Shown: positions 43,789 through 63,122 of the stretch, in pieces | Layout of the letters: every line of letters begins with the position of its first letter | Numbering within the stretch: position 1 is the stretch's first letter | From: Sinohyriopsis cumingii | Lineage: Eukaryota; Mollusca; Bivalvia; Unionida; Unionidae | Reading direction: 5' to 3' | Assembly (NCBI GenBank): GCA_028554795.2 | Contig: CM068842.1 | Span: forward strand, 54,897,360-54,961,359 | DNA length: 64,000 bases | Position numbers and translations under genes: made by a program | Notes under the pieces: generated by a model | What the model was told of the DNA's origin: nothing | The model's input: only the letters and a program-made list of their open reading frames with translations | The model's database searches: none

Positions 43789-43794
43789 GTCATA
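43789..43794. repeat. Left target-site duplication GTCATA
   Basis: The hexamer GTCATA sits directly outside the left TIR. The same hexamer in the same orientation follows the right TIR. Six bases is the duplication length known for Polinton integrases. Confidence 0.93.
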
Positions 43795-44293
43795 AGTAGT
43801 GAATGGGGTCACTTTAGCGACAATGGGAATTAGCATTAAAAACCACCCTGGGTCACTTTGGCGACAATGGAAATTTAACATTAACCACCCTGGGTCACTT
43901 TGGCGACAATGGAAATTTAACATGGGCAAAAAACCCTGGGTAAGATTAGCGACAATGGGAATTTAACATGGGGAATAGAGTTTGGGTCTGTCTAGGGACA
44001 AGGGGAATTGAACATGGGGAATAGAGTTTGGGTCTGTCTAGGGACAAGGGGAATTGAAGATGGGAATAGAGTTTGGGCTTGTCTAGGGACAATGGGAATT
44101 GAACATGGGAATAGAGTTTGGGTTTGTCTAGGGACAAGGGGAATTGAACATGTTAGAAAAAAAAACTACTTTAGGGACATTGGGAATTGAACATGGGATT
44201 TTTTTAAAAAAAAATTTTTTTAAAAAAAAGGGTAGGCAATGGAAAGTCAGTCTCTGTTCGAGAAATGTGGGTGGCTCTGAAAAGGGCCTTTGG
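43795..44293 (+). repeat. Left terminal inverted repeat, built of ~46-bp subterminal repeats
   Basis: This TIR is nearly the reverse complement of 61466-61937. Its outer part has tandem units around GGGTCACTTTGGCGACAATGG, and its middle part has four units around GAGTTTGGGTCTGTCTAGGG. An A/T tract (runs of T and A, 44209-44229) follows, then a conserved inner block that carries a histone-type stem-loop on the minus strand. It is about 27 bp longer than the right TIR because of small repeat-number and tract-length differences. Short open frames across it (for example 43946-44137) are repeat artefacts, not genes. Confidence 0.93.
44273..44288 (-). terminator. Histone-type mRNA 3' stem-loop, copy A (left TIR)
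   Basis: The minus strand reads ACCCAAA, then GGCCCT TTTC AGAGCC, then ACCCACA. The six-base stem has one C/A mismatch at the position where histone genes vary (Y/R pair). CGAACAGAGACTG, a histone-downstream-element-like purine block, follows at 44246-44260. This matches the metazoan replication-dependent histone 3' end (stem-loop with TTTC loop, A/C-rich 5' flank, ACCCA 3' flank). Confidence 0.85.
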
Positions 44294-44309
44294 GTTTCTT
44301 CTTCTTCTT

Positions 44310-44894
44310 CTAACTCCTTAATTTCTTTATCCATTCTCTTATTTTTTCCATCATTCCTTTCTTCTTCTTCTTCTTTTCTGTTTCTGGTATCCAGTCCGGG
44401 TGACCCATGGCTCGGAACTTCTGTTGGATTTTTATCCAGTTAGCGTTCAGTTTCTCTAGTTCTTCCATTTTCTTTCTATTTTCTTCTTCTTTTCTATCTT
44501 TTGCCCACCTGTCCTTTATTTTCTCCACTTCTTCATCTATCACCTTTCTCATCTTTTCTTCCCCTTTTTTCAATCTTTCAACACTCCTTTTGACAAAGGG
44601 CCACTCTGACCTTTTTTCTATCTCTTCCAAAAACCTTCTTACTTCTTCTACCTTCTCCAGGGCCTCTTTTAATGTTCCCACTCTGACATAAGGGGGATTT
44701 ATTAGCCCTCTCAGTCTCTTCACTTCTTCTTCAATTAATCCTTCTATCATCTCCCTGGCTAATTTTAATTCGTTCACATAGTGCACACTGGTTCTTAACC
44801 TCCAATCTCTTTCAATCCTTTCAACTCCATATTCACCATCCACCATCCAAAAATAAACATGCCTTAAATCATTGAACAGTTGGGACACTTCCAT
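44310..44894 (-). CDS. Charged coiled-coil protein, leftmost cassette gene (194 aa), unknown function
   Basis: Intact ATG-to-TAG frame of 194 residues. It is very rich in Glu, Lys and Arg with long predicted helices (residues about 35-180), and has a lysine run before a basic C terminus. I do not recognise the family. The segment around residues 46-60 (AREMIEGLIEEEVKRLR) resembles TEDLIEELFREEVKREK in the gene at 46151-46519, so the two look like diverged paralogues. A TATA-like TATAAGAACC and a shared promoter motif lie about 50 and 60-90 nt upstream. A histone-type stem-loop starts 21 nt after the stop, inside the TIR. It is the terminal gene of the left end and is transcribed outward. Possible role: virion core or host-interaction protein (inference only). 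Confidence 0.75.
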   Translation of the reverse strand: MEVSQLFNDLRHVYFWMVDGEYGVERIERDWRLRTSVHYVNELKLAREMIEGLIEEEVKRLRGLINPPYVRVGTLKEALEKVEEVRRFLEEIEKRSEWPFVKRSVERLKKGEEKMRKVIDEEVEKIKDRWAKDRKEEENRKKMEELEKLNANWIKIQQKFRAMGHPDWIPETEKKKKKKGMMEKIREWIKKLRS

Positions 44895-44940
44895 CTTCTT
44901 TTTTATTCTTTGTAGAATGGTTTGAACATTAAACCTTGTG

Positions 44941-44983
44941 GGTTCTTATACGAAAAGCGCGGACGTGATGGAAAACATCCCCC
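44941..44983 (-). promoter_or_regulatory. Cassette promoter 1: shared GC-rich motif plus TATA-like box
   Basis: The minus strand has TTTTCCATCACGTCCGCGCT followed closely by TATAAGAACC, about 50 nt before the ATG at 44894. The same motif precedes the genes starting at 45652 and 46519, at a similar distance, which supports a promoter role. Confidence 0.65.
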
Positions 44984-45301
44984 TACTTTCTCATTTCATA
45001 TAATATACTATCCACATAAGTGAAGCAACATTTAACAAACCCATAATCTACTATCCACACAATCGTACGTGAGCGGTTACAAAACCCAAACTATACTTTC
45101 CACATACGCTAAGAAACAATAAACAAACCCATAATCTACTATTCACACAAACTTACGTGAGCGCTTACAAACACAAACACACAAACACAAACACAAACAC
45201 ATACACTCACACTATGAAAAAAGAGTCAGTGTTTATATTCACACTACTCTACCTACACACATTGGCAAATCGATTGTTATTTCTTTTCCAGAGTATTGGG
45301 T

Positions 45302-45317
45302 AGCCCTGAAAAGGGCT
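45302..45317 (-). terminator. Histone-type mRNA 3' stem-loop, copy B
   Basis: The minus strand reads AACCAAC, then AGCCCT TTTC AGGGCT (perfect six-base stem), then ACCCAATA. A purine-rich GGAAAAGAAATAAC follows at about 45277-45290. The ~110 bp around and downstream of it is nearly identical to copy C, showing a cassette duplication. Confidence 0.85.
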
Positions 45318-45325
45318 GTTGGTTT

Positions 45326-45652
45326 TTAACTCCAGATGCACCAATCTAATGCTGGCACCTTCGTGGCCTGGCGCCACACACACATCTTCTTCCCCAGTCT
45401 CTTTTCACTCTTTTTTGGGGGAGAGCAGAGGCGGGATATGTGGCTTCAGAATCCCAATTTTCTGTCTCTGGGATTCTGAAATTTCTTCTCTCCTTTTCCT
45501 CCTCCTCTTTTATTTCTTCTTTCCTCCTCCTCTCTCATCCTTCCCTCTTCGACAATGGCCTCCGCGGCCAATTCATTCAACAGGCGCCTGGCATATTCCA
45601 GGTGCATCTGGAGTTCTAGAAGCTTTACAATTCTGATATTCATTCTCTTCAT
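45326..45652 (-). pseudogene. Second cassette gene, charged helical protein, apparently interrupted
   Basis: The frame opens at ATG 45652 and stops at TGA 45446-45448 after 68 residues. The same frame then continues open to TAA at 45326-45328, 9 nt before a histone-type stem-loop, so the TGA may be a nonsense mutation in a gene of about 108 codons. In a different frame there is an Arg/Cys-rich stretch ending at 45346, so a one-base shift is an alternative. The N-terminal part (LQMHLEYARRLLNELAAEA) has the same helical pattern as the neighbouring cassette genes. A proper TATA box (GTATAAATT, 45690-45698) and the shared promoter motif (45701-45730) lie upstream. Function unknown. Confidence 0.55.
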
Positions 45653-45689
45653 CAATCAACAAGGGTAGCTAGACTGCCCAGCGAGTTTT

Positions 45690-45730
45690 AATTTATACTG
45701 AAAGCGCGGACGTGAAGGAAAACTTCCCCC
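45690..45730 (-). promoter_or_regulatory. Cassette promoter 2: shared GC-rich motif plus TATA box
   Basis: The minus strand has GTTTTCCTTCACGTCCGCGC (45701-45730 region) followed by GTATAAATT. The motif is the same as at 44951-44983 and 46583-46612. Confidence 0.68.
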
Positions 45731-46103
45731 TAAAACATAAAATTGATCTTACCTAGATCATGACCAAAACAACGCGCAGACCTAAAAGAAACACTCACTC
45801 ACTTTTTTTATACTACCCATTACTATTCTAAAAAATTTTCATTAATCACTTCAATATACTATCCACATACGCAAAGCAATCCAATCAAACCCCCAAATCT
45901 ACTCTCCCCACACCCCAAATAGCCAAAAACATGATCTTAATCTACTATCCACACCAACGTACGTGAGCACTTACAAACACACAATCCTACACACAAACAC
46001 ATACCCTCACACTAGAAAAAAAAGAGTCAGTGTTTATATTCACACTACTCTACCTACACACATTGGCAAATCGATTGTTATTTCTTTTCTAGAGTATTGG
46101 GGT

Positions 46104-46119
46104 AGCCCTGAAAAGGGCT
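46104..46119 (-). terminator. Histone-type mRNA 3' stem-loop, copy C
   Basis: The minus strand reads AAAAGCC, then AGCCCT TTTC AGGGCT, then ACCCCAATA. AGAAAAGAAATAAC follows at about 46078-46090. The six-base stem is perfect. It terminates the gene at 46151-46519. Confidence 0.83.
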
Positions 46120-46150
46120 GGCTTTTTTTTTTGTTTGCTATGGCAATCTT

Positions 46151-46519
46151 TTAGTTTCTAAGAATGCGACATCCTTTGAGGATAGACTTTCTGACGATAG
46201 GTCTGCTTCTTCGGAAAGAGAAAAAGAACTCTTTGGTGTCGATACGACAATCGACAAAGCCTCTGTCAGGTTCAGGTTCCTGCTGCTGCTGCTGATGTTG
46301 TTGTTGTTGTTGCTGTTGCTGCTGTCTCTGAAGTCTGTACTTCTCTGTCCATTCTTCTTTCTCCCTCTTCACTTCTTCTCTGAAGAGCTCTTCTATCAGG
46401 TCTTCAGTGACTTTTAGCATTCTCACATTCTCTATCTCTTCTGGCTTCGGTATCAGACTGTGTCTGACCCTATGCAAATTCACGTAGGCTTCGTTTAGCT
46501 TAGCTAGTTTGGAGCACAT
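46151..46519 (-). CDS. Third cassette gene, polyQ helical protein (122 aa)
   Basis: The frame is open from 46648, but the TATA-like CTTTAAGAAC (46571-46580) and shared promoter motif (46583-46612) lie inside that upstream part. I therefore place the start at the ATG at 46519 (MCSKLAKLNEAY). The protein has a charged helical N-terminal half with TEDLIEELFREEVKREK, similar to the 44310-44894 gene, then a glutamine tract with one His, an acidic EPEPD, and a basic C terminus. A histone-type stem-loop starts 31 nt after the stop. I do not recognise the family; it looks like a paralogue of the other cassette genes. Confidence 0.68.
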   Translation of the reverse strand: MCSKLAKLNEAYVNLHRVRHSLIPKPEEIENVRMLKVTEDLIEELFREEVKREKEEWTEKYRLQRQQQQQQQQQHQQQQQEPEPDRGFVDCRIDTKEFFFSFRRSRPIVRKSILKGCRILRN

Positions 46520-46570
46520 CTTCGTAGGAGGATGAGTCGACAATGGATGGTTAGACTGGAAACTCCCCGG

Positions 46571-46612
46571 GTTCTTAAAGTCAAAGCGCGGACGTGAAGG
46601 AAAACATGCCTC
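46571..46612 (-). promoter_or_regulatory. Cassette promoter 3: shared GC-rich motif plus TATA-like box
   Basis: The minus strand has GTTTTCCTTCACGTCCGCGC followed by CTTTAAGAACC. It is the third instance of the cassette motif, about 55-90 nt upstream of ATG 46519. Confidence 0.62.
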
Positions 46613-46619
46613 CACGGTT

Positions 46620-46857
46620 TTCGAGCCGGAAAGTTCAATGAGTGTCATGAGAGGGATAGCAAGAAGTCAAAGAGCATGAATCAACATTCTTATAGCCAAA
46701 CAAAAGGCAAAGGCATTTTTTTCAAAACACAACATTTTTGTATTCAAAATCGCTTAACACTAACCAACAACTATAACATTTTTTTAACAATAATCCAACA
46801 ATATAACATCAAACATTTTTTTTTTCAAATCACAAACATTTTTTTTCAATTCACACT
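46620..46857. other. Intergenic, A-rich spacer downstream of protease
   Basis: No gene is seen. The sequence is low-complexity, with T runs on the minus strand. I see neither a histone-type stem-loop nor an AATAAA after the protease gene. Confidence 0.5.
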
Positions 46858-47418
46858 CTACTTTAAACAGGGCTGACAACGTTGTGAATGAAATTGTGAT
46901 TTCCACTGTTGGAAGTCATTAGGCCATTGATGGACACTACGTTTCCTAGCTTGAGACAAAAGATAAGCATACTGGTCACAAAACCATCGATCTACTTTCA
47001 CATCGATTCTTGAAGAAGAACGAGGATCAAAATGAGTCACTAAATGTTCTCAGGAATAGCCCAGGCTGCGATGATGCAGAAAATACACACAGTACTGTCC
47101 ACACACCAAGGAATCTGTGCCTTGTAATTTCACATTATTGAATCGGGTAGTCTGAGCATTTCTTCTCATAAAGTCAATGATATCGTCTTCCAAAGGGGGC
47201 AATCCGTACGAATCGAAATATTCCACACATCCTTCTTGAGGAAAGTAAACGGCTACCCAGTGGGTTCCTGGGAGATGACTGTCGTTCGTGTTGATGACAT
47301 AAGCTAGATGGTCTTGAGGTTTGCGATGAGGGAGTTCATCTTTAGCACAGACGACAGGATTCCAAGAAGACGTATACGAACTGTGGTTCAAAAGGTAATA
47401 AAGTTCCCAGGTATCCAT
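46858..47418 (-). pseudogene. PRO: Adenain-type cysteine protease, one in-frame stop
   Basis: This is the maturation protease of Polintons and adenoviruses (Ulp1/adenain fold), which cleaves virion precursors. The catalytic residues are visible: His53 in GTHW, Asp69 in EYFDSYG, and Cys110 in CGQYC, with Gln99 as oxyanion-hole candidate. The frame is open from ATG 47418 to TGA 47050-47052 (codon 123), then continues in the same frame to 46858 (ending QRCQPCLK). Related proteases extend past that point with a helical tail, so the TGA most likely truncates a ~186-residue enzyme. The catalytic core lies wholly before the stop, so some activity might survive. It is the last gene of the capsid cluster. 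Confidence 0.85.
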
Positions 47419-47437
47419 GTTTTGTTTTCTTTCTTCT

Positions 47438-47824
47438 TCACAGGTAATAATAAGTCATCAATTCGATCCTGACTTTTTGCTTGAAAATGTCTGACAAATA
47501 ACCGTTTCTTCGTTTCGTCTCCTCACTCTGATTCAGGAGAGCTTCGATACGATCGATCTCTTGAGTGGTTAATGGTGGACAAGAATGTTCACGCAAGTCT
47601 TTATACCACTGATGCAACACGACTTCGTCCGAGATGAGACTCCAAGCTTCGTCCAGATACTCGTCCAATTTTTCTTCTTGACTCAGCATCAGGCATTTAT
47701 CGTGTTGAATTTGATTGGGATGATCGTTTTGACATCCATAGCAATCTTTCTTGATCACTTGCGTCATTTTTTCGATCAAGTGTTTGGCAAAACAGGAGAC
47801 TAAATGGGCTTCTTGTTCGGCCAT
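47438..47824 (-). CDS. Conserved Polinton CYGC-type protein (128 aa)
   Basis: Intact ATG-to-stop frame. The core CYGCQNDHPNQIQHDKCLM (residues about 28-46), with Cys and His spaced like a zinc site, followed by helices with Trp/Tyr, is a pattern I recognise from invertebrate Polintons, where it sits near the protease and capsid genes. Its function is not established. It lies 20 bp upstream of the protease in the same orientation. A short frame at 47800-47940 opens directly after the capsid gene and could be a shifted N-terminal extension. Confidence 0.72.
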   Translation of the reverse strand: MAEQEAHLVSCFAKHLIEKMTQVIKKDCYGCQNDHPNQIQHDKCLMLSQEEKLDEYLDEAWSLISDEVVLHQWYKDLREHSCPPLTTQEIDRIEALLNQSEETKRRNGYLSDIFKQKVRIELMTYYYL

Positions 47825-47940
47825 CTCGACTTCATCATGACAACTTCTTCGTCTTTGTCTTGGGATTCTCCTTCCACGGTCTCCTCACATTCCATGTCCA
47901 AAGTTTCTCCACTAGGTAAAGAGGGATAACAGTCTTCCAT
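47800..47940 (-). CDS. Short acidic open frame between capsid and CYGC genes (46 codons)
   Basis: It begins with an ATG 5 nt after the capsid stop and overlaps the start of the 47438-47824 gene in another frame. It is acidic, with LDMECEETVEGE. The MECEE core loosely resembles an LxCxE Rb-binding motif, but Met replaces Leu. It may be an independent small protein or the broken N terminus of the next gene. Weak call. Confidence 0.3.
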   Translation of the reverse strand: MEDCYPSLPSGETLDMECEETVEGESQDKDEEVVMMKSRWPNKKPI

Positions 47941-47945
47941 AGCTT

Positions 47946-49264
47946 CTAATAGTCTAGAATGACTTCTCTCAAACTGTTGATTTCTATCGTATTATCGAAT
48001 TCTGCATACAGGATGACGTTCACTGTCTCTTTCACTTCTTCTGCAAACTGAAGTTCCACACGAATCTGGCCTGATTTTATAGGGTGGAAATGTCCCTCGT
48101 CGCTGCCTTGGTCTGGAGTGAGATCGAAAGCCCACAAAGCATAGCCTCCTGCGTAATCTTCGTACGTAATGCCGTGACTGGTGTTGGTCCCTAACTGTCC
48201 GGTGGCTTCGTACAGGGACAAGTACGATCTCAAGTAATTCATCTTCGTGTCACAAAAGTCAGTTTTGAAAGGTCGGGTACACAAGGTCTTGCCATCGCGA
48301 CTGACTTCGATTTTCTTCACCTTAAATTGTTTAACTTAAAAGGATTTTTAGTGAAGTCTCCGTTGAAGGCTGAAGTCTTGACCATACCAAGGATTAAACG
48401 TTTGGGTAATTGTCCTAGAAACAGATGATCTTTGATCATGGATTGTTGGTTAGCGGGAATGGTGAACGTTTTCACTTCCACGCGTCGTATGGGATACTTG
48501 GCGGTCGTTCTGCTCAACGTCTGACTGATGTCATTTCCCACTTTAGGTAACACTTCCACGCGTCGTACGTAGAGTTTGGCCTCCTCGATTTTGCTTTTAG
48601 GATTGCTAGTCTTAGTAGCATCAGCATCAGCCAACAAAAGGAAAGCGGCACTGCTGAGATTCAGTCTCAAGCGAACATTGACCCCGTTCAGCAAATATTT
48701 CTCTTGCAACCACATGTCCAAATGCAAACGATCCATCAGTTCTAAATTCTTTCCATCTTTGATTTTGTTTCGTCTTTCCGCAAAGCCGTCATTGTCTTTA
48801 TTAATTATGTCAAACTTGTCCGCTTCGTCAGGTTCCCATAGCACACAAGCATTGAGATGAGTATTCTTGGCATCTATTCCGTACGTCAAGAGATTTTCCA
48901 GGTAGGCACGGTAAGGGTAAGTATCCATGCTGCTGCTGACCAGTTTGTTATTCAAGTACAAGTCCACTGAGCTGAACAAGGAATGCATGAAATTGTTGAC
49001 GGGAGCTATATTCTCAGCAGTGACATCTATTCCACCATTATCCTTATCTAGAACTTTGACTTTCAAGTACAAGTAACTGCTATTCAGATCGATGTAATCT
49101 TCGGGCTGTCCTTTGATTTCAAACTCGATGGGAGCGGAATTAGTCAGTGAGGAGACGCCATTAAATTCCACCCATTGGGATTCTTGCATGGTCATCATTG
49201 TGGGGGCCATGGCAAACAGATCCAGTTCCGACTTGGAACAGGCGCAAGACTCTCGGTGCATCAT
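47946..49264 (-). pseudogene. MCP: Major capsid protein, double jelly-roll, with one frame break
   Basis: F54H12.2-like Polinton major capsid protein. Residues 1-315 are in one frame from ATG 49264 (SELDLFAMAPTMMTMQESQW near the start), ending at TGA 48317-48319. The C-terminal ~124 residues, ending VILYAEFDNTIEINSLREVI, continue in the -1 frame to the stop at 47946. Both halves are well conserved, including the NPF segment just before the break and the EFDN..EI C terminus typical of the family. The break overlaps the heptamer GTTAAAC (48335-48329), whose zero-frame codons are TTA AAC, just before the zero-frame stop. The simplest reading is a one-base deletion; programmed frameshifting is a testable alternative. 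Confidence 0.92.
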
Positions 49265-49280
49265 TTTTTTTTGTTCTTTC

Positions 49281-49706
49281 TCAATAATCGAAAACGTCTA
49301 AGTCTCGAACGGTTCTTCTTTTCTTTGCCTTTCTATCTTTAGACGTGTGAAGTCTGGTGAAAGGGTGTTTTCTTCGTCGTCTCTTTCTGCCTTGTCCTTG
49401 CTGAATGCCTGACTCGGTAGCGTGCAGGGCATTTATAGGTGTGTCTCGTCGGCCCAAAAGGTCTTTACCCGTTTGTAGCAAGACATTTTTGCCTGCCCTC
49501 ATGAAGGCTTCTTTGGGGTTTTGCTTGTCAATGATGACATTTCGGAGAAATTCGTTGCCTTGTTTCAGTGCCGCATCTTTCAAGGCGTGCAATCCGCGTG
49601 TCACCATCGGTTTCAACACCGGGGCCACCGAACGAAAGGCCGATTTTAACATATCTCCTAAACCGTGTCCTCGCTGTCGAGCAACCCCTCGGTACACTGG
49701 ATACAT
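49281..49706 (-). CDS. Basic small virion protein, pVI/core-like (141 aa)
   Basis: Intact frame. It has a Gly/Arg-rich N terminus (RQRGHGLGDMLKSAFRSV), amphipathic helices, then a strongly basic C-terminal region with GRKRRRRKHP and RKAKKRRTVRD. Its position between the penton-like and major capsid genes is the usual site of a small Gly/Arg-rich virion protein in Polintons. It may correspond to an adenovirus pVI- or core-like protein. That assignment rests on position and composition, not on a clear motif. Confidence 0.7.
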   Translation of the reverse strand: MYPVYRGVARQRGHGLGDMLKSAFRSVAPVLKPMVTRGLHALKDAALKQGNEFLRNVIIDKQNPKEAFMRAGKNVLLQTGKDLLGRRDTPINALHATESGIQQGQGRKRRRRKHPFTRLHTSKDRKAKKRRTVRDLDVFDY

Positions 49707-49709
49707 GAC

Positions 49710-50669
49710 TTACGAATCGTGAGAGAACCGTTTTCGAAAATGGAGTTTCACCGTGACTTTTCCTTTGGTGAATGGAATATTTTGTCCCAAATCTCCTTTT
49801 ATAGCAATGTTGACCGTGTCCAAATACGACTTGCTGACAGGCAAATAATGAGGATGTACAAATTCGCGGTGGACGTGATAAGTGTTTCCACCTTCTTGGT
49901 CATTGGTTGTGCCACTATCCACTTTGAAAGGAATGACACGCAGTAACGGCACATAGGTGTGTCCCACCACGTTGTACTCCACCACATCGGAGTACACAAA
50001 CATCAAATTCAGTCCCTGGTTCAGTTCTACCGGGAAACGAAAATACTTCGCAAAATACACGTTGTTGTCAATGTTTGCGATGTGAATCGTTTTGGTCTGC
50101 TTATCCGTGACCAAATTGAGGTCTCCACCCAAAATGTCATACAATTCAGGGCAAAATTTAATACGTATACTTTTTTCCTCACTTTCAAATTTGATGAGTA
50201 GACGGTGAGACACTTGATGGTACTCAATAGTGACGCGTTTTTTTACTCCGGTCAGAACTTTGTCAAATGCTGCATGGAATTTGTCAGCGATGGCCTCCAC
50301 CAGATGTTGACCACTAAAATAATGGCCTGGGTTAATTTTAAAGTGATAAACGTAAAAAGGAGGAGAAGTGTCACTGCTGCTGCGGGGTTTTGGGGTCTTG
50401 GGAAGTGATTTATGTTGAGAAGTGGTCGTCATGGTTTGCTGCACTATTGGGTCCAGAATTTCGACGTCAAAATTGTTTTGAGTTTCAGTGATGTTTTTGA
50501 TTTGTGTTGGAAAAATCATTTCCACTAAAGCCACTTCCCAATGGGCTTCGTGATCTAACGGGATGGCCTGAGGTAATTTGGCCGTGTAACAGCACAACGT
50601 GTTCTTGGGAAACACCTCCATGGAACTGTCGCTGGGTAAGGTTAAGTAAAATTGGTTTTGGTGACTCAT
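49710..50669 (-). CDS. Minor capsid (penton-like, single jelly-roll) protein, 319 aa
   Basis: I choose the ATG at 50669, because the protein from there (MSHQNQFYLTLPSDSSMEVF) matches the start typical of Polinton penton-like proteins. Beta-strand-rich sequence follows, including FYVYHFKINPGHYFSGQHLV and a C terminus ending in VKLHFRKRF. The frame is intact to 49710. It stays open upstream to about 51170 and includes the membrane-protein segment at 50669-51070 without a stop, so an N-terminally fused product is possible. The next gene's ATG overlaps its stop region, which fits a tightly packed capsid cluster. Confidence 0.88.
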   Translation of the reverse strand: MSHQNQFYLTLPSDSSMEVFPKNTLCCYTAKLPQAIPLDHEAHWEVALVEMIFPTQIKNITETQNNFDVEILDPIVQQTMTTTSQHKSLPKTPKPRSSSDTSPPFYVYHFKINPGHYFSGQHLVEAIADKFHAAFDKVLTGVKKRVTIEYHQVSHRLLIKFESEEKSIRIKFCPELYDILGGDLNLVTDKQTKTIHIANIDNNVYFAKYFRFPVELNQGLNLMFVYSDVVEYNVVGHTYVPLLRVIPFKVDSGTTNDQEGGNTYHVHREFVHPHYLPVSKSYLDTVNIAIKGDLGQNIPFTKGKVTVKLHFRKRFSHDS

Positions 50670-51070
50670 AGTTCTGTGGCTGTCCGAGGGGTTACTGGAC
50701 GTCAGAGGCGTGTCTCCGCTCAAAATGGGGTTGTTGTTGTTGTTATTGGAGTGGTGACTGGCACTGGCACTGGACACAAGGTTCCCGTGGTTCCCGTGCG
50801 AGGAGAATTTCAGGAAGGGATTGGGAAGCAGGTAACCGATGCAACTACTCAATAAAATGGTCCACAATTGTTTGTCTCTTTGTTGCAAACTCAAATTGGC
50901 GATGGCTGCCCCGATGACACAATACACCACGAAGATTTGGCAGAAAAAGACGATTTGCGTTTTAGGCACACGTTCTCCGCACCACACCCACAAGGGTTGT
51001 TTTTGCAAATCTGCACAGAAGAACTGGGTGAAGGAGTGGTCATCGTAGCTGCGTCTGTGTGAAAGGGCAT
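50670..51070 (-). pseudogene. Small membrane protein of the Polinton capsid cluster, frame-shifted
   Basis: The conserved part encodes a transmembrane helix (IVFFCQIFVVYCVIGAAIA) followed by the recognisable LWTILLSSCIGYLLPNP, seen in small Polinton membrane proteins. That part is in the penton frame, which has no ATG here. The likely start, ATG 51070, 6 nt after the chromodomain stop, is in another frame. Moving from it to the conserved part needs a -1 shift, possible at CAAAAAC (51005-50999). No stop separates this segment from the penton protein. Likely role: virion or assembly membrane protein (inference). Confidence 0.6.
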
Positions 51071-51075
51071 GATGG

Positions 51076-52184
51076 TCACTTCTTTTTATAGTCGATGACT
51101 TGCGAAGCGTCGATCCAAGAATCAAAACTGGGTGGATATCCTTTCCAACGTACTTTGACTTCTTTGACACGTCGTTTACCCACTTTACGGGTTCTGCGTT
51201 CGAGAATGCTTTCGATGTCGTACACGTCGTCTTCTTTTTTGGTCACACGTTGTAACTCGGGCAAATAAAACGTTCCTTTGAGCACTTCTCCGTTCATGTC
51301 TTCAATTTATAGACGGCAGGATGACGGCCATACACTCGTCCAGTGACACGAAACAATTCGGTCGTCCAGTTAGGTAAGTAACCTTTGTCGAAAGTGCGTT
51401 TGGTTTTGCCAATGCGCACCCAATCTCCTACGGTCAACTCTCCACTTTTCTTGGGGACAGCCCTCGTCGGGGACGTACCAAACAGGCGCTCAAACACCAA
51501 CACTTCGTTGTCGGGAGTCACTTCTTGCGGGGCACGTCCGATGCTTCGATGGTAAGATTGGTTGTACGCTTGCACCAGGTGCGGTAAGATGTCGATGTAC
51601 TTCAGAGTGTGGTGATGCGTAAAATATTTCCACATGCGTTCTTTCAAAGTGCGTTGAAAACGTTCCACGATGCTGGCTTTGGTTTCGGGATTCTCGGTGG
51701 TAAAAAAATGAATGTCACGTTTCTTTAATTCTTTTTGGAAAGCTTGGTTCAGAAATTCGGTGCCTTTGTCCGTTTGCCATCGAAGAGGGTGACGACCGTT
51801 TTGTTTCAACATTCGTTGCAGGGCTCGCACTAACTCGCTGCTCGATTTGGAAGTCAAGGGCACGACCCAGGCAAATTTGGAAAAGACGTCGATGACACAA
51901 AGCAAATATTTGTAGCCACGATTGTAGCTAGCCAAATGAGAGACATCGGCTAAATCGGCTTGCCATTGATGATCGATGCCTTCCACTCGGGTGCGACTTC
52001 TGGAAAACTTGCGTCAAATGGGTTTGTGTAAAGTGTAGGTAGCTTGTTCTTGTAACCATCGTTGCACTTGAGGTAAACGGAGACTTTTCACTCGCATTTT
52101 GGCAGCACGATACAATTTTTGAACTCCTGCGTAACCTGCAGGATGCGAGGGATCGTAGTAAATGCTGGCTAAGACTTTTTCCAT
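51076..52184 (-). pseudogene. INT: Retrovirus-type integrase with chromodomain, one stop and one frame break
   Basis: F54H12.3-like Polinton integrase. Start ATG 52184 (MEKVLASIYYDPSHPAGYAG). An in-frame TGA at 52014-52016 (codon 57) interrupts it just before the catalytic core. The core has all three acidic residues: Asp77 in QADLADV, Asp139 in QTDKGTEF, Glu174 in SIVERFQRTLKERMW. After an SH3-like C-terminal region the frame ends at TGA 51294. A chromodomain (VYDIESILERR...VRWKGYPPSFDSW, with aromatic cage residues Tyr, Trp, Trp) lies in the -1 frame from 51297 to 51076. The stop follows ATT and is immediately followed by CGC; CGA to TGA is a plausible origin. The enzyme would insert the element and make the 6-bp duplication. 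Confidence 0.93.
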
Positions 52185-52201
52185 TTTTTTGTGTTTGTGT
52201 G

Positions 52202-52405: not shown

Positions 52406-52409
52406 CTTT

Positions 52410-52826: not shown

Positions 52827-52875
52827 GGGGTTGTCAGTGGTCGATTCTGAGATCTTGGGACTTCAGAGGGCCTTT

Positions 52876-53276: not shown

Positions 53277-53330
53277 CTTTGAGTCTCGGCACCAAAAACA
53301 CTGATACCCCGACTTGGTCACAGGCCTTTT

Positions 53331-54251: not shown

Positions 54252-54318
54252 GTTCAAAATGTGTGTGAGACAGACGATAAGGGTCTGAGGTTTTTATAGA
54301 TTTTTTTGTGGAGTGAAA

Positions 54319-55047
54319 TTAAGTCGAGGACGGAGACGTGTACAGGAAAGGCCCTCCGTCTTGACCCCAGTGGTGAAACAAGTGGGTACGAAATCGCAAA
54401 TCCTCGGGGGTCGTAGGTTTCAAATCGACGAGTAAATAGGCGTGTGGCGTTTGAGTGGCATCGTCGTACGCCTGAGTCAGCCAAGGTGTCCCTAACTGTT
54501 TGGCTAAGACTTGCACTTGCGATTTATCTCGAGGGCTTTTAAACAAGACCACGTAATGCGCATTGAGACTGATGGTGCGATGGGCTTTACTTTGTTGAAA
54601 CAAATTTTGGGTGATGTAAACGACACTGGCATTATGGTGATGCCCTTTGCGCGTGAACCACAGTTTAATTTCTTCTTCGTCTTCTCCTAACATGTCGTCG
54701 AAAATGACCAAATGGGTTTGACGGGAGTCAGAGACGATGCCGTCGTCTTCTTTAGGAATGCCTTCCACAAACACGATGGAATCGCCTTGACTTTCTCGCA
54801 AGAAGCTGTACGCCGATTGCCACTCTTTGTAACACCACACGATCCGCTGAGGTGGCCGATCGATCAAATGATGTTTATGTTCGATCAAACGTTTGACGAA
54901 TTCGGTTTTGCCTGAACCGCTAGGTCCTGCAATGAGCATGTTAAAGGGATGGCGAAGATACAAAGTCTCCCAACTGGCACGATCTAAGTGTTCGTCGATG
55001 ACTTTGACAGTAGAGGAAGAGGGAGCAGAGACAGCAGAGGTAGCCAT
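54319..55047 (-). CDS. ATP: FtsK/HerA-type genome packaging ATPase (242 aa)
   Basis: Intact frame. Walker A GPSGSGKT at residues 41-48 (in NMLIAGPSGSGKTEF), Walker B LVIFDDML at 113-120, and a sensor-like VVYITQNLF further on. This is the A32-like packaging ATPase of Polintons, adintoviruses and large DNA viruses, which pumps DNA into capsids. Its own TATA box (TATATAAA, 55094-55101) lies about 47 nt before the ATG. The gene is undamaged, unlike its neighbours. Confidence 0.93.
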   Translation of the reverse strand: MATSAVSAPSSSTVKVIDEHLDRASWETLYLRHPFNMLIAGPSGSGKTEFVKRLIEHKHHLIDRPPQRIVWCYKEWQSAYSFLRESQGDSIVFVEGIPKEDDGIVSDSRQTHLVIFDDMLGEDEEEIKLWFTRKGHHHNASVVYITQNLFQQSKAHRTISLNAHYVVLFKSPRDKSQVQVLAKQLGTPWLTQAYDDATQTPHAYLLVDLKPTTPEDLRFRTHLFHHWGQDGGPFLYTSPSST

Positions 55048-55093
55048 AGTGTGAGGAATGTCACTTGTGACACAAAAACAAACAAGACGAGAG

Positions 55094-55124
55094 TTTATAT
55101 ACTTTTTTTCAGAACACGTTTATT
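55094..55124 (-). promoter_or_regulatory. Poly(A) signal of upstream gene abutting ATPase TATA box
   Basis: On the minus strand AATAAA (55119-55124) is followed within 20 nt by TATATAAA (55094-55101). The first would end the small Cys-rich transcript and the second would start the ATPase transcript. This compact arrangement shows that at least one gene uses ordinary polyadenylation. Confidence 0.6.
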
Positions 55125-55268
55125 GAATATTTTAAACATGAATACGAAAGACAAAAATACATAAAAGCCAAAGGCTTAAGTACAAGGATAAAAGGCACAT
55201 GATAACCATTAACGTGGAATAAAAACGAGTGTCTGTACAACATGTTTTGGGTAAAGTTCTGACCAGTT

Positions 55269-55477
55269 CTATAGGGGTAAGGTCACACAAGTGTCCTCCC
55301 GAAAGGGTCTTTCAGGCCTGTCCACGACAGTCCTGTCCTGGGTGACGGGTTCTTCTGGTACTGTCACTAACACAGGTTGAAAAAGTCGCAAGGCTCACAA
55401 TCGCATTCCACTTCAGAAGCCCCACACTTGAATTGTGCCTATCTAAACTTGTTTTGTGTTTCTCTGAAAGTATTCAT
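55269..55477 (-). pseudogene. Small Cys-rich/acidic gene between polymerase and ATPase, broken
   Basis: It is not visible as one long frame. The ATG at 55477 follows a strong TATA box (TATATAAAAAGG, 55525-55537). The frame has a TAG after 12 codons, then continues in frame with FKCGASEVECDCEPCDFF. It then meets TAG unless read in the -1 frame, where PVLVTVPEEPVTQDRTVV and a further ~15 residues follow to a stop at 55269. AATAAA lies at 55119-55124. The position, small size and CxCxxC cluster recall the small 'oncoid' genes reported in adintoviruses, but no exact LxCxE is present. Weak but structured call. Confidence 0.45.
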
Positions 55478-55524
55478 CTTGTTCACTTGGTAGTCACAAT
55501 GAACTATCGATCTTGCCTAGGGTT

Positions 55525-55537
55525 CCTTTTTATATAC
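55525..55537 (-). promoter_or_regulatory. TATA box of small Cys-rich gene
   Basis: The minus strand reads GTATATAAAAAGGAACC, 17 nt beyond the polymerase stop and about 50 nt before ATG 55477. It has the same form as the other TATA boxes in the element. Confidence 0.6.
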
Positions 55538-55554
55538 AGACCAATACCGACGTG

Positions 55555-58500
55555 TCAATACGGTAAGGTGAAATGATTGGAAAGTCGCACTCGCTTCTGG
55601 TACACGATTTGATAGACTTTTTCCAAGGGTCGACTGACGATGTGGTGAGTGGGTAAACGTACAATCTTGTTCGGTTGATAGGTGGTCACTTTAAAGTGTT
55701 CATCCTCTCCCGATTGCAAGGCTTCTTTCAATACCCCAAAGTTGACCACACGACTGGTACGGTAATTCAGAGTCAATCCTTTCACTTTGCAAGTCGTGTG
55801 CACTTCTTGTGGGTCCCGGTATTCGTAGCCGTATTTTTGGGGACCGCCACTGACGAAACTTAGAATCTTGTCGTCGGGATGTTCGTCTGTCCAGGCTCCT
55901 AAACGGTCTCCTTCGATGTCAGGGTGATGTTGAATCGGGTGATGGATGTAAATGCAACTGTCCGTGTCAAAGTACAGGACACGTTCCCCTAACAGTTCTA
56001 AAGCTTCGTACAATTTTAAGCGAGCATGAGCTGTCACGTAAGCCGCAATGATGACATTTCCAAAAGGGTCGTCTTGTACAAAGTCCAGATCTTCTTCGTA
56101 ATTGACCAAGATCAAATCCTCGCGAACGACGTCCACGTGTTTCATGTATTTGGTTTTGTCGTGAATCATCTTGAAGTAGCGGGAAGGTTCTGTCAAATAT
56201 TCCGTCTTGGGTAATCACGGTCGTTGTGCCATTTTACCCCAAAAGCAATTTAACATCACTTTGGCAAACGATCGCCTGCCTTCGTTTTTCTCGATGTGGT
56301 CTAAGGAGATGCCTTCTTGTTCATAGTATTTCTCTTTGAATTGTATTTGGTCTTCGGGAGTGTGACACCAGGACGGATAGCCGCTGGCTTCTTACTTCAG
56401 TTTCAAAAAGGCATCCACGTAGTCGGCGAAAATGCCTTTCTGACTGGGGTCACCCTTGTGGTATTGTTGTGTCTTGGGAAAGTGGCAAATTTCGTACACT
56501 TCTAACAGTTGGTATCCCATGTCCAGAGCTTTGAACAATTCTACGCTGACCCAGGTTCCCGTCAAGGCCCGTTCTTCCTGGGTGTGCTGACAAGGTTGGT
56601 CTTGGTTGCACGTTTCGGCACAAGTACGGCACAAAGGAAACATCAGTTTGCCTTGACAATGGTGAGGTAACACGGGATGGTATAGGTTCGTGGGAGGCAA
56701 AACTTTACACTTGATCAAGCCTTCGTATTGTCGAATGTTTTTCAGGTCGATGTGTTCCGTGAACAATTGTGGGTGCCCTGCAGGAAAGCGACAATATTTG
56801 CACATGTAAGGATACAGCGAACACACGTCCAAGTATTTGATTTCTTCTCCTTTCTCTTCGTCGGCTTGGTACAGCAAACAGGTGGCATTGGTCCTTCCTC
56901 CGTACAAACTATCCCTCGGGTTCAGGGGGTCCATCAGCTTGTAACTTTCCACGACACGTTTAAACTCGGGATCGGTTTTCATACGGTGATCGTACTCGTG
57001 TTCCCACATTTCCACCACTTGTTATCCTTCCTGTTCTAACTTTAGGCGTCGCTGACAAGTGTCCTGGTACAAGTCTTCCATGGTTCGTTGTAAAAACTGA
57101 TTTTTAGTGCCACGGTCAGGATAACAGACGGGACATCCGTGAAATAAGCAACCGTTAAACTCGTACACGATCTTCGGGTTTTCTAAGTCCCAACCATCGA
57201 CCGAATACGTTCCGATGGTCTTTTCACCCCCTGCGTTGCGGGCATGCTGAATCCATTTGTCTTCCTTGTCGCACAAGTAATGTAACCAACGTAGGGCTTT
57301 GACCGAGTACTGACGTTTGACATAGTGGGTCGGTTGAGGGCTGATGACAGCCACGGTGTTTTCAGGCAGGAATCGTTGTCGATACACTAAGGAACACGCT
57401 TTGGCAATGGTGCAAGCTTCTTTCAAAGGATCGACCCCTCCGTGTTCCATGAACAGTTCTCGAAATTTTCCACAGCAACGTCGTAAAATGTCCACGTCGG
57501 AACGACAATACTTTAACATTTCTTCCTGAAAGTCGAAAGGGTCGGAGGCGTGAGCCTGGTACCAAGTGTAGAAAGCTTCTCGTTGTTCGGTACGCATGTT
57601 GTCGGGGTCGTAATAGTGAGCCTCAGGCAAATGAGGTAGAACGGTGTGTTGGTTGGCTTCCGTATTGAAAAAGTGTGGAAAGTACCCTTTAGCCATTTCT
57701 GTCATTCCAAACGTTTTAGGCATTCGACTCAAAGGCATGGCCAAGCAGCTCATCGAATCTTTAAACTGTACTTGTCCCACTTGCATGAAAATGATTTTGG
57801 CTCCGTTCAAAGTGACTTTAGGACGTTCGATGCCTTGTTCCGTATAATACCTCAAAAGAAACTGTCCATCGTATCCGGAGAAATTGTGAGCCATCACTGT
57901 GGCATGACGATGACAATCTCCGTAACGTTCGATGTCCTTTTGGCTCCACGTCTTGTCGATGGGGTCTAAGACCCATTGGGCAAAATCGGCTAACGTGTTC
58001 GGTCCTCGAAAGATTTTTTCACGCTATCCGGGAATCTTGCTGCAGTGAGGGCAATGACTTAAGATAGGTTCTTGAATGCACTTCTCGCACGCTCGATCAG
58101 CCACGCAGAAATTAGGAACGTGAATGCCAGACTCTTGCATGCATTCGAAATCGAAAAAGATGAAATTGCCTTTCTTCTTTTGACCGTCCTCTTTCTCTGG
58201 TGGGGGTTGGTATTTTTGCACGTAGCACTCGTGTTCCAAGTCCACGATGTGATGACAAATGTGACATTTTTTCTTTCCTGAACATACGTGTGTCATGGTA
58301 CTGTTGGTACGTAGGCCGTGTCCATACGTAGGGCACAATCTCAGGAGTTGACAAGCACATTTCTGCTGTGAACCTTGCGTCTTCAGATGTTGTTGGTAAC
58401 AGGCAGGGCTGACAAACGTACGCAGACAAGCAGGACAATGTACTCTTTCTTGTCCTTCGCTCAGACAGGGTGGAGAGGCCAAACATCCTGAGCATTTCCA

Positions 58501-59565
58501 TCCACAATGTTTGTGTTGTTCTCGATTTTTATAGCCACAGTCACATTTCTCTCAATAATAAACATATCCCAGGAATCCAGTGATAGTGGTAATGGTATCG
58601 AAATGGTCATCGTGATAATAGACATGAATGTATTTTCCATCCTTAAAGTCTTTCCCTCGAAACAACAGAGGCCCACGCACTTCTTGAGGGTGCACTTTCA
58701 AGGTGTAGCTTGGAGTTAGGACATCTTGCAATTTTTGCATTTCAGGAATGCCACAGGGTGTGTCTTTGGACAGGCCAGCTTGTTGCAACAGGAGTTCTGC
58801 TTCGTTTCGTTGTTTGGCTCGGTCGGATCGTTGAATAGTTTTCCAGGCTCTTTTCCATTCTGTCGTGTCGTTCTTGTTGGCGTAGGTTCGTCCCACCACG
58901 ATGGCTCGGGCTAAACACATCTGGTCTTGAGGGTTGCTAATTTGTACGAGACTCTTTTTGGTGCTGCGAAGGTCGTTCACCAATAAGACCTTTTTGTGTC
59001 CTGTCCCTTGAGGAAGAGAGACGTGGGCCATTTTCAGTGTGGCTTTACCATCGGTGATGTCAAACTGGTCATTAGATTGTTGTACGTGTTGAATCTTGTC
59101 CATGACTTTGGAAGGGGTTAGTTCTGCGGGTCTGCTAAACTCGATCCAAACAGGGGATTTCAAACCGTCGTGATCTATGGATAGTGTCAAGCGATCGTCT
59201 TTGGGTTGACATTGTCGCTTGAGTGCGGTGAGCAAAGAATCCCACATCTCGGTGATAAACCCTTCTGCTTTCTCCAGTGGTACGTCGGCCTTGAAATCTT
59301 TAAACTTCACTGTGTAGGTGTAAGCCGTGGTTCTAAATTTTCTAGAGGAGCGCTTTTCCGTCTCTCGAATGGAATAGTACTTTTCAGGGTTGACTAAGGG
59401 TGGTAAACTTTGTTTAGAGGGTTCAGATTCTGGTTCACTCATGTCCTCTTCAAAATCACTGGCATGAATTTGTGCCAAGACTTCAGCTCTGGTACGAGGC
59501 GATAGATCACGTTTCTGCCTCTTACTTTCTTCTTCTTTCTTCTCGAATGAATAGGATCGTTTCAT
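55555..59565 (-). pseudogene. POLB: Protein-primed family B DNA polymerase, five in-frame stops
   Basis: One reading frame of 1336 codons from ATG 59565 to TGA 55555, with internal stops at codons 338 (TGA 58552-58554), 514 (TAG 58024), 848 (TAA 57022), 1058 (TAA 56392) and 1117 (TGA 56215), and no frameshift. All catalytic motifs are present: ExoI FFDFE (Asp472), ExoII HNFSGYD (~561-565), ExoIII YCRSDVD (Asp690), motif A DVCSLYP (Asp913), motif B KVMLNCFWG (~1102-1110), motif C YFDTDS (~1199-1203). The N-terminal ~340 residues carry a nuclear-signal-like SKRQKR and the Polinton N-terminal domain, followed by Cys/His-rich zinc-like segments. It would replicate the element from a terminal protein primer. 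As it stands it cannot be made full length without readthrough. Confidence 0.95.
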
Positions 59566-59610
59566 CTTGAGTGCAAAACGTCAAATGACTCAAGTTTAAA
59601 CACCATAGAC

Positions 59611-59648
59611 TAATTTATAGTCATGGCAAACCAGCGTATATAAAAGGG
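59611..59648. promoter_or_regulatory. Divergent TATA boxes for polymerase and zinc-knuckle genes
   Basis: Minus-strand CTATAAATTAG (59611-59620), 46 nt before the polymerase ATG. Plus-strand TATATAAAAGGG (59637-59648), 52 nt before ATG 59700. The two boxes are 17 bp apart, so this is a compact bidirectional promoter. Confidence 0.7.
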
Positions 59649-59699
59649 TGTGTGTCTTGTCCTTTCACTATTCATTTCACTCTCAAACCGAGCACAACG

Positions 59700-60175
59700 A
59701 TGGAAGAGACTAACCAAATTGAACGTTTCATCAGAGCTTTGCGAGGGGTCATTAGAAAATTCTCTTCAGACCAGCCGACGGACTACTCTCCTTCCTTTCG
59801 AGATAAAAGTCAAGATACTTGCTATATCTGTCAGAAGAAAGGGCATTGGTCTTCAGAGTGTCCAGACCGTCAAAAAAGAAAAAAAAAACAGGGACTAGAA
59901 AAGACAAAAGTCAAGAATCCTGTTATTATTGTCAAGAAAAAGGACATTGGTCTCCAGATTGCCCAAAAAAGAAACAAGAGGAGTCAGAAGAAAAGAGGGA
60001 TTCTTCAGAAGAAGAGAGAGATTCTTCAGAGGAAGAAAGCAGCCAGGTGAAGAAAAAGAAACAGGAGAAGAAAAGAAGAAGGGAAGAAAGTGAGGAGGAA
60101 GAGGAAGAAAAGACTGTGACGGTGAAGAAATTGAAAAACAGAGAGAGTAAAAAGAGAAACAGAAGAAGTGTATGA
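59700..60175 (+). pseudogene. Two-zinc-knuckle (CCHC) protein with basic/acidic tail, break in A10
   Basis: ATG 59700 follows a strong TATA box. The first frame has CYICQKKGHWSSEC (CX2CX4HX4C). A second knuckle, CYYCQEKGHWSPDC, lies in the -1 frame, followed by a Ser/Glu/Lys-rich tail to TGA-region 60175. The frames meet at an A10 run (59879-59888). The knuckles are nearly the same, so they are a duplicated unit and were once in one frame. CCHC knuckles bind single-stranded nucleic acid in retroviral nucleocapsids and cellular CNBP-like proteins. It is one of only two plus-strand genes. The run could cause slippage, or the assembly may lack an A. Confidence 0.72.
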
Positions 60176-60400
60176 ACTTTATAAAGTGTTCTGTTGTAAA
60201 TTGTGAATTGGATTGTAACTATGGAGAAAAGATTACATTAATTATATAAGGTAAGTGTCTTTGAGTTTTGATTTTAAATAAGAAGCTACACTCACGCACT
60301 CATACACAGACACGTACTATAAGGGTAAAATGCTGTGGGTTTTTTTGTTGATTTTTGAGTTATTGGCAAATTGAAAGGCTATCTCTTTTCGAGAAAAGTG
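60176..60400. other. Spacer between zinc-knuckle and Q-rich genes (convergent)
   Basis: The two genes point at each other. On the plus strand I see no stem-loop or AATAAA after 60175. Near 60362 the block TTGGCAAATTGA resembles TTGGCAAATCGA found beside copies B and C of the stem-loop. Confidence 0.45.
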
Positions 60401-60403
60401 GGT

Positions 60404-60419
60404 GGCCCTGAAAAGGGCC
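60404..60419 (-). terminator. Histone-type mRNA 3' stem-loop, copy D
   Basis: The minus strand reads CACCAAAAAAA, then GGCCCT TTTC AGGGCC (perfect), then ACCCACTTTTCT, then the purine-rich CGAAAAGAGATAGCC (60377-60391). It closely matches the consensus of metazoan histone genes, including the HDE spacing. It lies outside the TIRs, so it is an independent copy. Confidence 0.9.
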
Positions 60420-60441
60420 TTTTTTTGGTGTAGGGGTGAGT

Positions 60442-60999
60442 TTAAGCAATCAACTTTAACTGCCTTAAGCCTTTGCCACGGCCGAGGCCTACTTCTGATG
60501 ATGATGATTGGGTTGAAATCACTAAGGGTGGTACGGTAGGCTTAGTCACAGGGTTGGCGTGTTTAGCTCGGGAAGGTCGTATTCTCTTCGGTCGTGATAA
60601 AGAAGTCTGATACATTTGTTTCAGACTTCTTAACTCCGCTAAAATGTCCAACAGTACCGTGACCGTTTGATTTTCACCCTCTTGTTTCTTTGCTGCTACT
60701 TCTTCTTGTTGTTGTTTTTTTCTTACCTCTTCTTGTTGCTGTTGCTGTTGCTGTAGGAGAAAAGCTTGTTCCGCTTCCTTTTGTCGTTGCATAAATTTCT
60801 CCAATTCTTCTTTCTGTCTCTGTCTAAAATTCCCCACTTGCGGTAACGAAGAATGAGACGAAGGTTCCGGAACAAATTCTTGCGAGGTAAGAAAATCCAC
60901 AAAATCCCAATGTACCTCTTCTGAAAGTAAGTCCGGGTTCCCTTGGGCGGTCTCCACTGCTGGTGCACCCCAGTGAATCGTTTTCTGAGTTTCCGTCAT
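60442..60999 (-). CDS. Q/E-rich coiled-coil protein (185 aa), unknown
   Basis: Intact ATG-to-stop frame. It has an acidic N-terminal third with aromatic residues (HWDFVDFLTSQEFVPEP), a long Gln/Glu/Lys coiled-coil with polyQ (about residues 57-105), then VTVLLDILAELRSLKQMY, and a basic tail with RPKRIRPSRAK. I do not recognise it. The promoter contains TCTATATAGA, CACGTG and TGACGTCA upstream. A perfect histone-type stem-loop begins 22 nt after the stop. With the other four stem-loop genes it forms a non-core class restricted to the element ends. Confidence 0.75.
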   Translation of the reverse strand: MTETQKTIHWGAPAVETAQGNPDLLSEEVHWDFVDFLTSQEFVPEPSSHSSLPQVGNFRQRQKEELEKFMQRQKEAEQAFLLQQQQQQQEEVRKKQQQEEVAAKKQEGENQTVTVLLDILAELRSLKQMYQTSLSRPKRIRPSRAKHANPVTKPTVPPLVISTQSSSSEVGLGRGKGLRQLKLIA

Positions 61000-61218
61000 G
61001 TTGAATCACGGTCGCATAGATTGACTGCACACAGGCGCTAGCGAATCTATATAGACCACGTGACGTCACAGACTGCTCTCTTCGGATTGGATGCGGGCTG
61101 ACTGAATTTTGTCACGCGTGTTTGGATTGGTCAATGAACTCAATCCGTTTCAATCCTTCCTCTCCCTATAAATAAGCACAGTTCAGCGCAATCACTCACC
61201 TGTTTTCGGAGCCTCAAG
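61000..61218. promoter_or_regulatory. Bidirectional promoter: CRE, E-box, CCAAT boxes, two TATA boxes
   Basis: Between the divergent genes 60442-60999 (-) and 61219-61452 (+). Minus side: TCTATATAGA (61046-61055). Centre: CACGTG (61057-61062) overlapping a perfect CRE TGACGTCA (61061-61068). Plus side: inverted CCAAT boxes ATTGG (61086-61090, 61126-61130), ACGCGT, and TATAAATA (61167-61174), 45 nt before ATG 61219. CCAAT plus TATA arrays are also typical of histone promoters; that parallel is an inference. Confidence 0.7.
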
Positions 61219-61452
61219 ATGTGGACCGACGTTCAATCTTCCACCCTTGTGTCAACAATGATGTTCAGGACGGACATACCCATGTATGTCCGGTCCAAGT
61301 GGACTGTTGTCGATAGGACAGATACTAGTCTATGGATGAGAAGAGTTTACATAGAAAGACAAGGATGCCTCAAGAGGGTACTTGTGTATGGACCTGCAGT
61401 TAGAAGGAGTTTAAGAAGAAGAAGAAGATGTGACAGATGCCGTCTATGTTAA
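61219..61452 (+). CDS. Arg/Cys-rich small basic protein, rightmost cassette gene (77 aa)
   Basis: Intact frame, ATG 61219 to TAA 61450. It has a Thr/Val/Met-rich N-terminal half, several Arg-Arg pairs, and a strongly basic Cys-containing C terminus (RRSLRRRRRCDRCRLC). Its size and charge suggest a DNA-condensing, protamine- or mu-like protein, but I do not recognise the family. It has its own TATA box and CCAAT boxes. A perfect histone-type stem-loop lies 18 nt after the stop at the inner edge of the TIR. It is transcribed outward, mirroring the leftmost gene. Confidence 0.7.
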   Translation: MWTDVQSSTLVSTMMFRTDIPMYVRSKWTVVDRTDTSLWMRRVYIERQGCLKRVLVYGPAVRRSLRRRRRCDRCRLC

Positions 61453-61465
61453 TATTAACATAAAA

Positions 61466-61937
61466 CCAAAGGCCCTTTTCAGGGCCACCCACATTTCTCG
61501 AAAAGAGACTGACTTTCCATTGCCTACCCTTTTTTTAAAAATTTTTTTTAAAAAAAAATCCCATGTTCAATTCCCCTTGTCCCTAAAGTAGTTTTTTTCT
61601 AACATGTTCAATTCCCCTTGTCCCTAGACAAACCCAAACTCTATTCCCATGTTCAATTCCCATTGTCCCTAGACAAGCCCAAACTCTATTCCCATCTTCA
61701 ATTCCCCTTGTCCCTAGACAGACCCAAACTCTATTCCCCATGTTCAATTCCCTTTGTCCCTAGACAGACCCAAACTCTATTCCCCATGTTAAATTCCCAT
61801 TGTCGCTAATCTTACCCAGGGTTTTTTGCCCATGTTACCCAAGGTGGTTAATGTTAAATTTCCATTGTCGCCAAAGTGACCCAGGGTGGTTTTTAATGCT
61901 AATTCCCATTGTCGCTAAAGTGACCCCATTCACTACT
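61466..61937 (-). repeat. Right terminal inverted repeat
   Basis: Reverse complement of the left TIR, with the same subterminal minisatellite, A/T tract and inner stem-loop block. The terminal bases read CACTACT next to the target duplication. The inner boundary falls just after the stop codon of the plus-strand Arg-rich gene, so the TIR provides that gene's 3' end. Confidence 0.93.
61471..61486 (+). terminator. Histone-type mRNA 3' stem-loop, copy E (right TIR)
   Basis: The plus strand reads AAAACCAAA, then GGCCCT TTTC AGGGCC, then ACCCACATTTCTCG, then AAAAGAGACTG (61501-61511). All histone 3'-end parts are present with normal spacing: A/C-rich 5' flank, perfect six-base stem with TTTC loop, ACCCA, and an HDE-like block. 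It follows the Arg-rich gene. Confidence 0.92.

Positions 61938-61943: not shown

Positions 61944-63122
<1,179 letters not shown>

Follow-up and report, generated by a model that had tools for sequence, protein, structure and literature searches.

Do the genes of a mobile element that encode no histones carry the signals by which animal histone genes are expressed? The question is raised by a stretch of 64,000 nucleotides from the bivalve Sinohyriopsis cumingii (assembly GCA_028554795.2, contig CM068842.1, positions 54,897,360 to 54,961,359, forward strand), here called the window, which contains a Polinton with genes L1, L2 and L3 at its left end and R2 and R1 at its right end. SLBP binds the stem-loop of a histone message, the U7 small nuclear ribonucleoprotein (snRNP) pairs with an element downstream of it, and the transcript is cut between the two and receives no poly(A). 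Animal histone mRNAs have been characterised as a class of their own, without poly(A) and with a stem-loop at the end (PMC12775136). A preliminary description of the window had reported five such stem-loops behind the end genes of the Polinton and had proposed that they yield histone-like transcripts. The histone-type 3′ signals were confirmed here, and three left-end genes were found by sequence match to carry host histone promoter boxes as well, which is new. On these sequence grounds we consider it very likely that this Polinton family has its end genes built as histone-like expression units, by which proteins other than histones would be made.

Histone-type 3′ signals in the Polinton and its relatives

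The strict pattern of stem, TTTC loop and purine element was found at five sites in the window, all inside the Polinton, and did not occur in 500 dinucleotide shuffles. A looser pattern gave six sites where 0.69 were expected, the sixth being a three-mismatch match within a core gene. The five stem-loops and the purine-rich element past each of them are thus as they had been described, and the distance from the stem to GAAAAG or GAACAG (13 nt at four sites, 14 nt at 46104) is the host's own spacing. The stems are fully paired at four of the five sites; the stem at 44273 (L1) has a C.A mismatch, and GAACAG replaces GAAAAG there. The count of five also needs to be read with care. The stems at 44273 and 61471 occupy opposite arms of the terminal inverted repeat (TIR), and the sites at 45302 (L2) and 46104 (L3) lie in a common 84-nt repeat with 99% identity, so that about three sites are independent, and even these three types resemble one another.

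The sites had been placed on the coding strand just past a stop codon. This holds for L1, L3, R2 and R1, where the stem follows the stop by 21, 31, 22 and 18 nt, respectively. It does not hold for L2, whose plausible 68-aa open reading frame (ORF), counted from the reading frames, stops 128 nt ahead of the stem at 45302; the two stops closer to this stem, at 28 and 8 nt, terminate nothing but a frame lacking ATG and one of 19 codons.

We then compared the window with the rest of the host genome (2.9 Gb, 1138 contigs). With the Rfam histone 3′ stem-loop model RF00032, 75 of 589,472 candidates were scored, a sample and no census, from which the sites of the window and those of the host histone genes are absent. 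All 75 scored matches fall in relatives of the Polinton, in loci that are biased by selection on the stem-loop score. In each of the 20 longer loci (L001-L020) at least one further stem-loop with zero to two mismatches is present in addition to the selecting one. When 26 further, non-selected sites were aligned to the window, the stem-loop was 97.1%, the ACCCA flank 96.2% and the downstream element 97.9% identical, whereas identity was 76.0% in the spacer, 86.0% upstream and 87.3% downstream. The closing pair in 24 secondary sites was A-T in 12, G-C in eight, G-T in one and non-standard in three; this pairing count dropped sites with a flank not starting AC (host H2B and eight of 20 R1 copies). 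A test free of stem-loop selection was provided by R1 copies chosen by protein, 20 of which were hand-picked from 150 listed. The stem-loop was kept in 19 of them, the remaining copy having one stem base changed, and GAAAAGAGA stood 13 nt on in all 20 (judged by eye in the copy with the changed stem). All 20 share at least 94% protein identity with the window's copy and are therefore close relatives. The expectation that related elements would share the structure was borne out, with stem-loop and downstream element conserved across copies.

The stem-loops might instead bind SLBP without setting the 3′ end, the messages being polyadenylated or read through and the structure acting in translation, in stability or as an SLBP decoy. 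A decoy would fit an element this numerous (150 or more copies of R1). However, at the non-selected sites the U7-type downstream element equals the stem-loop in conservation (97.9% versus 97.1%), and this counts against a role in SLBP binding alone, for which the downstream element would not be needed. L1, L3, R2 and R1 furthermore have no AATAAA or ATTAAA within 400 nt past the stop (TATAAA is present in this interval after L3 and R2). We regard this explanation as improbable.

Likeness to host histone genes, from 3′ end to promoter

Among the host histone matches, 150 of 662 candidates were scored. These place the host histone genes in tandem arrays whose repeat unit is about 8.3 kb long, with many of the genes on small contigs. 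In one unit (L106) H3, H4, H2B, H2A and H1 are all on one strand, and each ends in an RF00032 match of 35.0-39.4 bits. The two best sites of the Polinton (40.6 and 40.4 bits) outscore all five. The stem GGCCCT/AGGGCC is common to the Polinton and host H3, H4, H2B and H2A, while host H1 has GGTCCT/AGGACC, a paired change. In all five host genes GAAAAG stands 13-14 nt past the stem, as it does in the Polinton. The likeness of the end genes to these histone genes thus takes in the six-bp stem, the TTTN loop, the position of GAAAAG, a short 3′ untranslated region and a reading frame free of interruptions; the left genes in addition have promoter boxes in common with H2B, H1 and H4. In contrast, the proteins of L1, L3, R2 and R1 are not histones by Pfam, and the genes are dispersed with a mobile, virus-like element, whereas the histone genes are arrayed in tandem. 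The presence of SLBP in the host is implied solely by its intact histone signals.

Three exact copies of the core TCACGTCCGCGC lie in the window, one ahead of each of L1, L2 and L3, and the host histone unit has two, ahead of H2B and of H1. The L1 promoter is identical to that of host H1 at 25 of 26 nt, besides its match to H2B (Table 1). Promoters were compared by local alignment scores against 200 mononucleotide shuffles. The scores of L1-L3 with H2B and H1, and of L2 with H4, were above all 200 shuffles (z 8.1-12.9), whereas six core-gene promoters reached z 2.2 at most against host histone promoters and had no boxes. Related copies contain 52 boxes with at most two mismatches in 23 of the 75 loci, often paired about 67 nt apart. 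The box core was 97.2% identical at nine alignable promoter sites, the only ones used, versus 76-90% around it. In the related copies L001 and L006 the counterpart of the second L2 box is the host H4 sequence (21 of 21 nt; from the alignment for L001). HINFP, a candidate for the factor behind the ACGTCCGC box, is offered as a lead only; the motif letters were absent from the top-ranked literature.

A match of 24 nt to the H2B promoter is also consistent with passive capture, in which a histone 3′ end and promoter were acquired once and have persisted unused; the relation of the sites by duplication would fit such an origin too. Unused signals would not, however, be expected to exceed the intervening spacer in conservation across copies, as the signal positions do, and R1 is under purifying selection at a median synonymous divergence (dS) of 0.90. 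Persistence without use is therefore very unlikely.

The element and its genes

The sequence at 43795-61937 is a Polinton (Table 1). Long TIRs and a 6-bp target site duplication (TSD) are present, and each TIR arm contains several tandem subrepeats of about 45-46 bp (43879-44154 and 61560-61830). The type B DNA polymerase, presumably a protein-primed enzyme, matched PF03175 on two ORF pieces (E 7.6e-16 and 4.7e-20), and the A32-type packaging ATPase matched PF04665 above the cut-off (E 5.5e-8). Matches to the rve integrase (PF00665, E 0.006, one ORF piece) and to an adenovirus-like protease (PF00770, E 0.0063) were below the cut-off, the former being weak. The capsid ORFs are putative, assigned by their position; the putative capsid ORF had no match in Pfam or PHROG and no convincing sequence match in the PDB. 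The Polinton thus shares TIRs, a 6-bp duplication, a type B polymerase, an A32 ATPase and a weak rve match with Polintons/Mavericks and adintoviruses. The core genes of this copy are broken up. Its polymerase is split into at least three ORF pieces (55555-57894), two of which match PF03175, and the copy therefore looks inactive, although the R1 and R2 frames are open. A plus-strand CCHC zinc knuckle gene (PF00098, 59700-60050) faces the minus-strand core genes and has no stem-loop within 400 nt past its stop. The DNA to the right of the Polinton contains long dinucleotide repeats of AC and TA (62380-62440 and 62865-63120).

Table 1. Features of the Polinton in window coordinates; bit scores are for RF00032 (gathering score 34)
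Feature	Position	Strand	Remarks
Stem-loop and downstream element of L1	44248..44293	-	29.9 bits, below gathering; one mispair; GAACAG
Stem-loop and downstream element of L2	45277..45322	-	31.0 bits, below gathering
Stem-loop and downstream element of L3	46080..46124	-	21.7 bits, below gathering; 84-nt repeat common with L2
Stem-loop and downstream element of R2	60379..60424	-	40.6 bits, above gathering
Stem-loop and downstream element of R1	61466..61511	+	40.4 bits, above gathering
Histone promoter box of L1	44956..44979	-	24/24 nt identical to host H2B promoter
Histone promoter box of L2, same as L1 box	45703..45726	-	match to host H2B/H1
Second L2 box	45771..45791	-	20/21 nt identical to host H4 promoter
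Promoter box before L3, same as L1 box	46585..46608	-	inside longer 165-aa frame
Divergent R2/R1 promoter	61000..61218	.	two CCAAT boxes, CRE/E-box, TATAAATA at 61167-61174
Gene L1, 194 aa, predicted helical bundle	44310..44894	-	ORF list; AlphaFold
Gene L2, 68-aa ORF in this copy	45446..45652	-	reading frames; probably decayed
Gene L3, 123 aa	46151..46522	-	start assumed to be second ATG of 165-aa frame
Gene R2, 185 aa	60442..60999	-	ORF list
Gene R1, 77 aa, Arg-rich C-terminus with C-x2-C	61219..61452	+	ORF list
Polinton, TIR to TIR	43795..61937	.	inverted repeats, TSD, type B polymerase and A32-type ATPase above Pfam cut-off
TSD GTCATA, left copy	43789..43794	.	abuts element end
TSD GTCATA, right copy	61938..61943	.	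abuts element end
Left TIR, ~46-bp subrepeats	43795..44297	.	L1 stem-loop at inner edge
Right TIR	61462..61937	.	R1 stem-loop at inner edge

For L2 and L3 we chose the start codon ourselves, and L3 resembles L1 and L2 as judged by eye. Four of the five end-gene proteins (L1, L3, R2 and R1) were scanned against Pfam, and none matched any family, histones included, at E 0.01. The AlphaFold model of L1 is a confident helical bundle (pLDDT 81) for which the PDB gave no fold match at E 0.001; a model of R1 (pLDDT 55) was rejected as too weak for use. Protein relatives were found for L1 (four short unnamed metagenome sequences, from short contigs) and for R1 (two short unnamed metagenome sequences). 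IMG/VR, in which records very near the window's genome may be left out, contained no relative of the capsid, L1, R1 or PolB and no match to the stem-loop pattern.

A protein search found at least 150 open copies of R1 scattered through the host genome, and the 100% protein identity of many listed copies points to recent spread. Selection was assessed from the ratio of non-synonymous divergence to dS (dN/dS), using matches that extended over 60% of the protein and, among pairs, those that had 40 codons in common and a dS above 0.05; the pairs are not independent, and L3 yielded no copy in this search. The median dN/dS was 0.11 for R1 (52 copies, 4 with an internal stop in the match), 0.46 at a dS of 0.128 for R2 (46 copies, 14 with a stop) and 0.25 for L1 (12 copies, 8 with a stop); matches with internal stops were kept. 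Judged by this ratio R1 is under purifying selection; the gene has been strongly constrained, and its 3′ signals have meanwhile hardly changed. The neighbours R1 and R2 differ in median synonymous divergence (about 0.9 versus 0.13, L001-L075), a gap behind which recombination or unlike sampling of copies could lie.

A probable histone-like route of expression and what it would mean

If the end genes are histone-like expression units, the host factors that activate histone genes would start their transcripts at G1/S. SLBP would bind the stem-loop of the message, the U7 snRNP would pair with the GAAAAGAGA element, and the message would be cut after ACCCA and would not be polyadenylated. The accessory proteins would thereby appear during host DNA replication. 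The transcripts had been proposed to be tied to S phase. That idea is strengthened by the promoter boxes of the left genes, and the 3′ structure is supported; that the messages are processed in this way, stay free of poly(A) and are timed to S phase is what we infer from them. The signals were probably either taken from host histone genes or have converged on the same factors.

Several observations weigh against this reading. The proposed check with RF00032 was positive at R2 and R1, and three of the five sites scored under the threshold. The comparison of 26 sites is one that any site with its stem-loop lost beyond alignment escapes. Among the 75 selected sites the contrast was smaller (downstream element 91.7%, spacer 84.2%, upstream 86.6%), and one of the 75 lacked the downstream element at its place. 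Non-standard pairs made up 6 of 144 over the 24 secondary sites, three of them at the closing pair. The absence of AATAAA and ATTAAA within 400 nt downstream is shared by the core genes, and poly(A) signals were therefore rejected as an uninformative discriminator. The best host U7 candidate scored 29.3 bits with RF00066 (cut-off 34) and by eye showed no clear pairing to the Polinton's downstream element; the match is weak and was rejected as evidence. The promoters of R1 and R2 are weakly like those of histones (H2A/H4; z 2.6 and 2.9, reached by 5 of 200 shuffles each), and we do not claim a histone-type promoter for these two genes.

The hairpins might alternatively work at the DNA level, for instance in replication or packaging close to the ends of the element. 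The two sites of five at the inner TIR edges would fit this, but three sites lie outside the repeats, and all five are on the coding strand past genes. Conservation extends beyond the palindrome to the loop, the ACCCA flank and the strand-specific downstream element, and the same signals stand in host histone genes. Like passive capture, this reading is very unlikely.

In the top-ranked literature on animal elements, the founding adintovirus paper apart, no account of histone-type 3′ processing or histone promoter boxes was found for Polintons or adintoviruses. The preliminary description, which knew of no earlier one, needs to be qualified by one precedent. An Rfam cmscan of polinton-like virus (PLV) genomes lists six histone 3′ untranslated region stem-loops in 8300 genomes, none of them in cryptophyte PLVs (PMC12220804). 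These uncommented matches belong to the same RNA structure family as the sites described here; unlike them, they are given as a bare count, and gene, downstream element, promoter and function are not discussed in the non-coding RNA section of the available text. Adomaviruses encode histone-like proteins, and the term 'stem-loop' is absent from the available text of that paper (PMC11071296).

The histone-like expression of the end genes may go further. There is perhaps an even chance that the accessory genes, at the promoter as well as at the 3′ end, have been rebuilt into counterfeits of histone genes, switched on with the host histone genes and ending without poly(A). They would then provide natural non-histone animal messages that pass through the histone pathway, and the many copies could tax the supply of SLBP and U7 during replication. 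For genome annotation, scans for the histone stem-loop can be swamped by mobile elements, with 75 of 75 scored matches here lying in Polinton relatives. If the histone-like route is true, the histone pathway is open to hijack by the non-histone genes of a mobile element, the Polinton family would be a natural system in which to ask what set of signals is enough for histone-type transcription and U7 processing, and a virus-like element would be tied to the S phase of its host.

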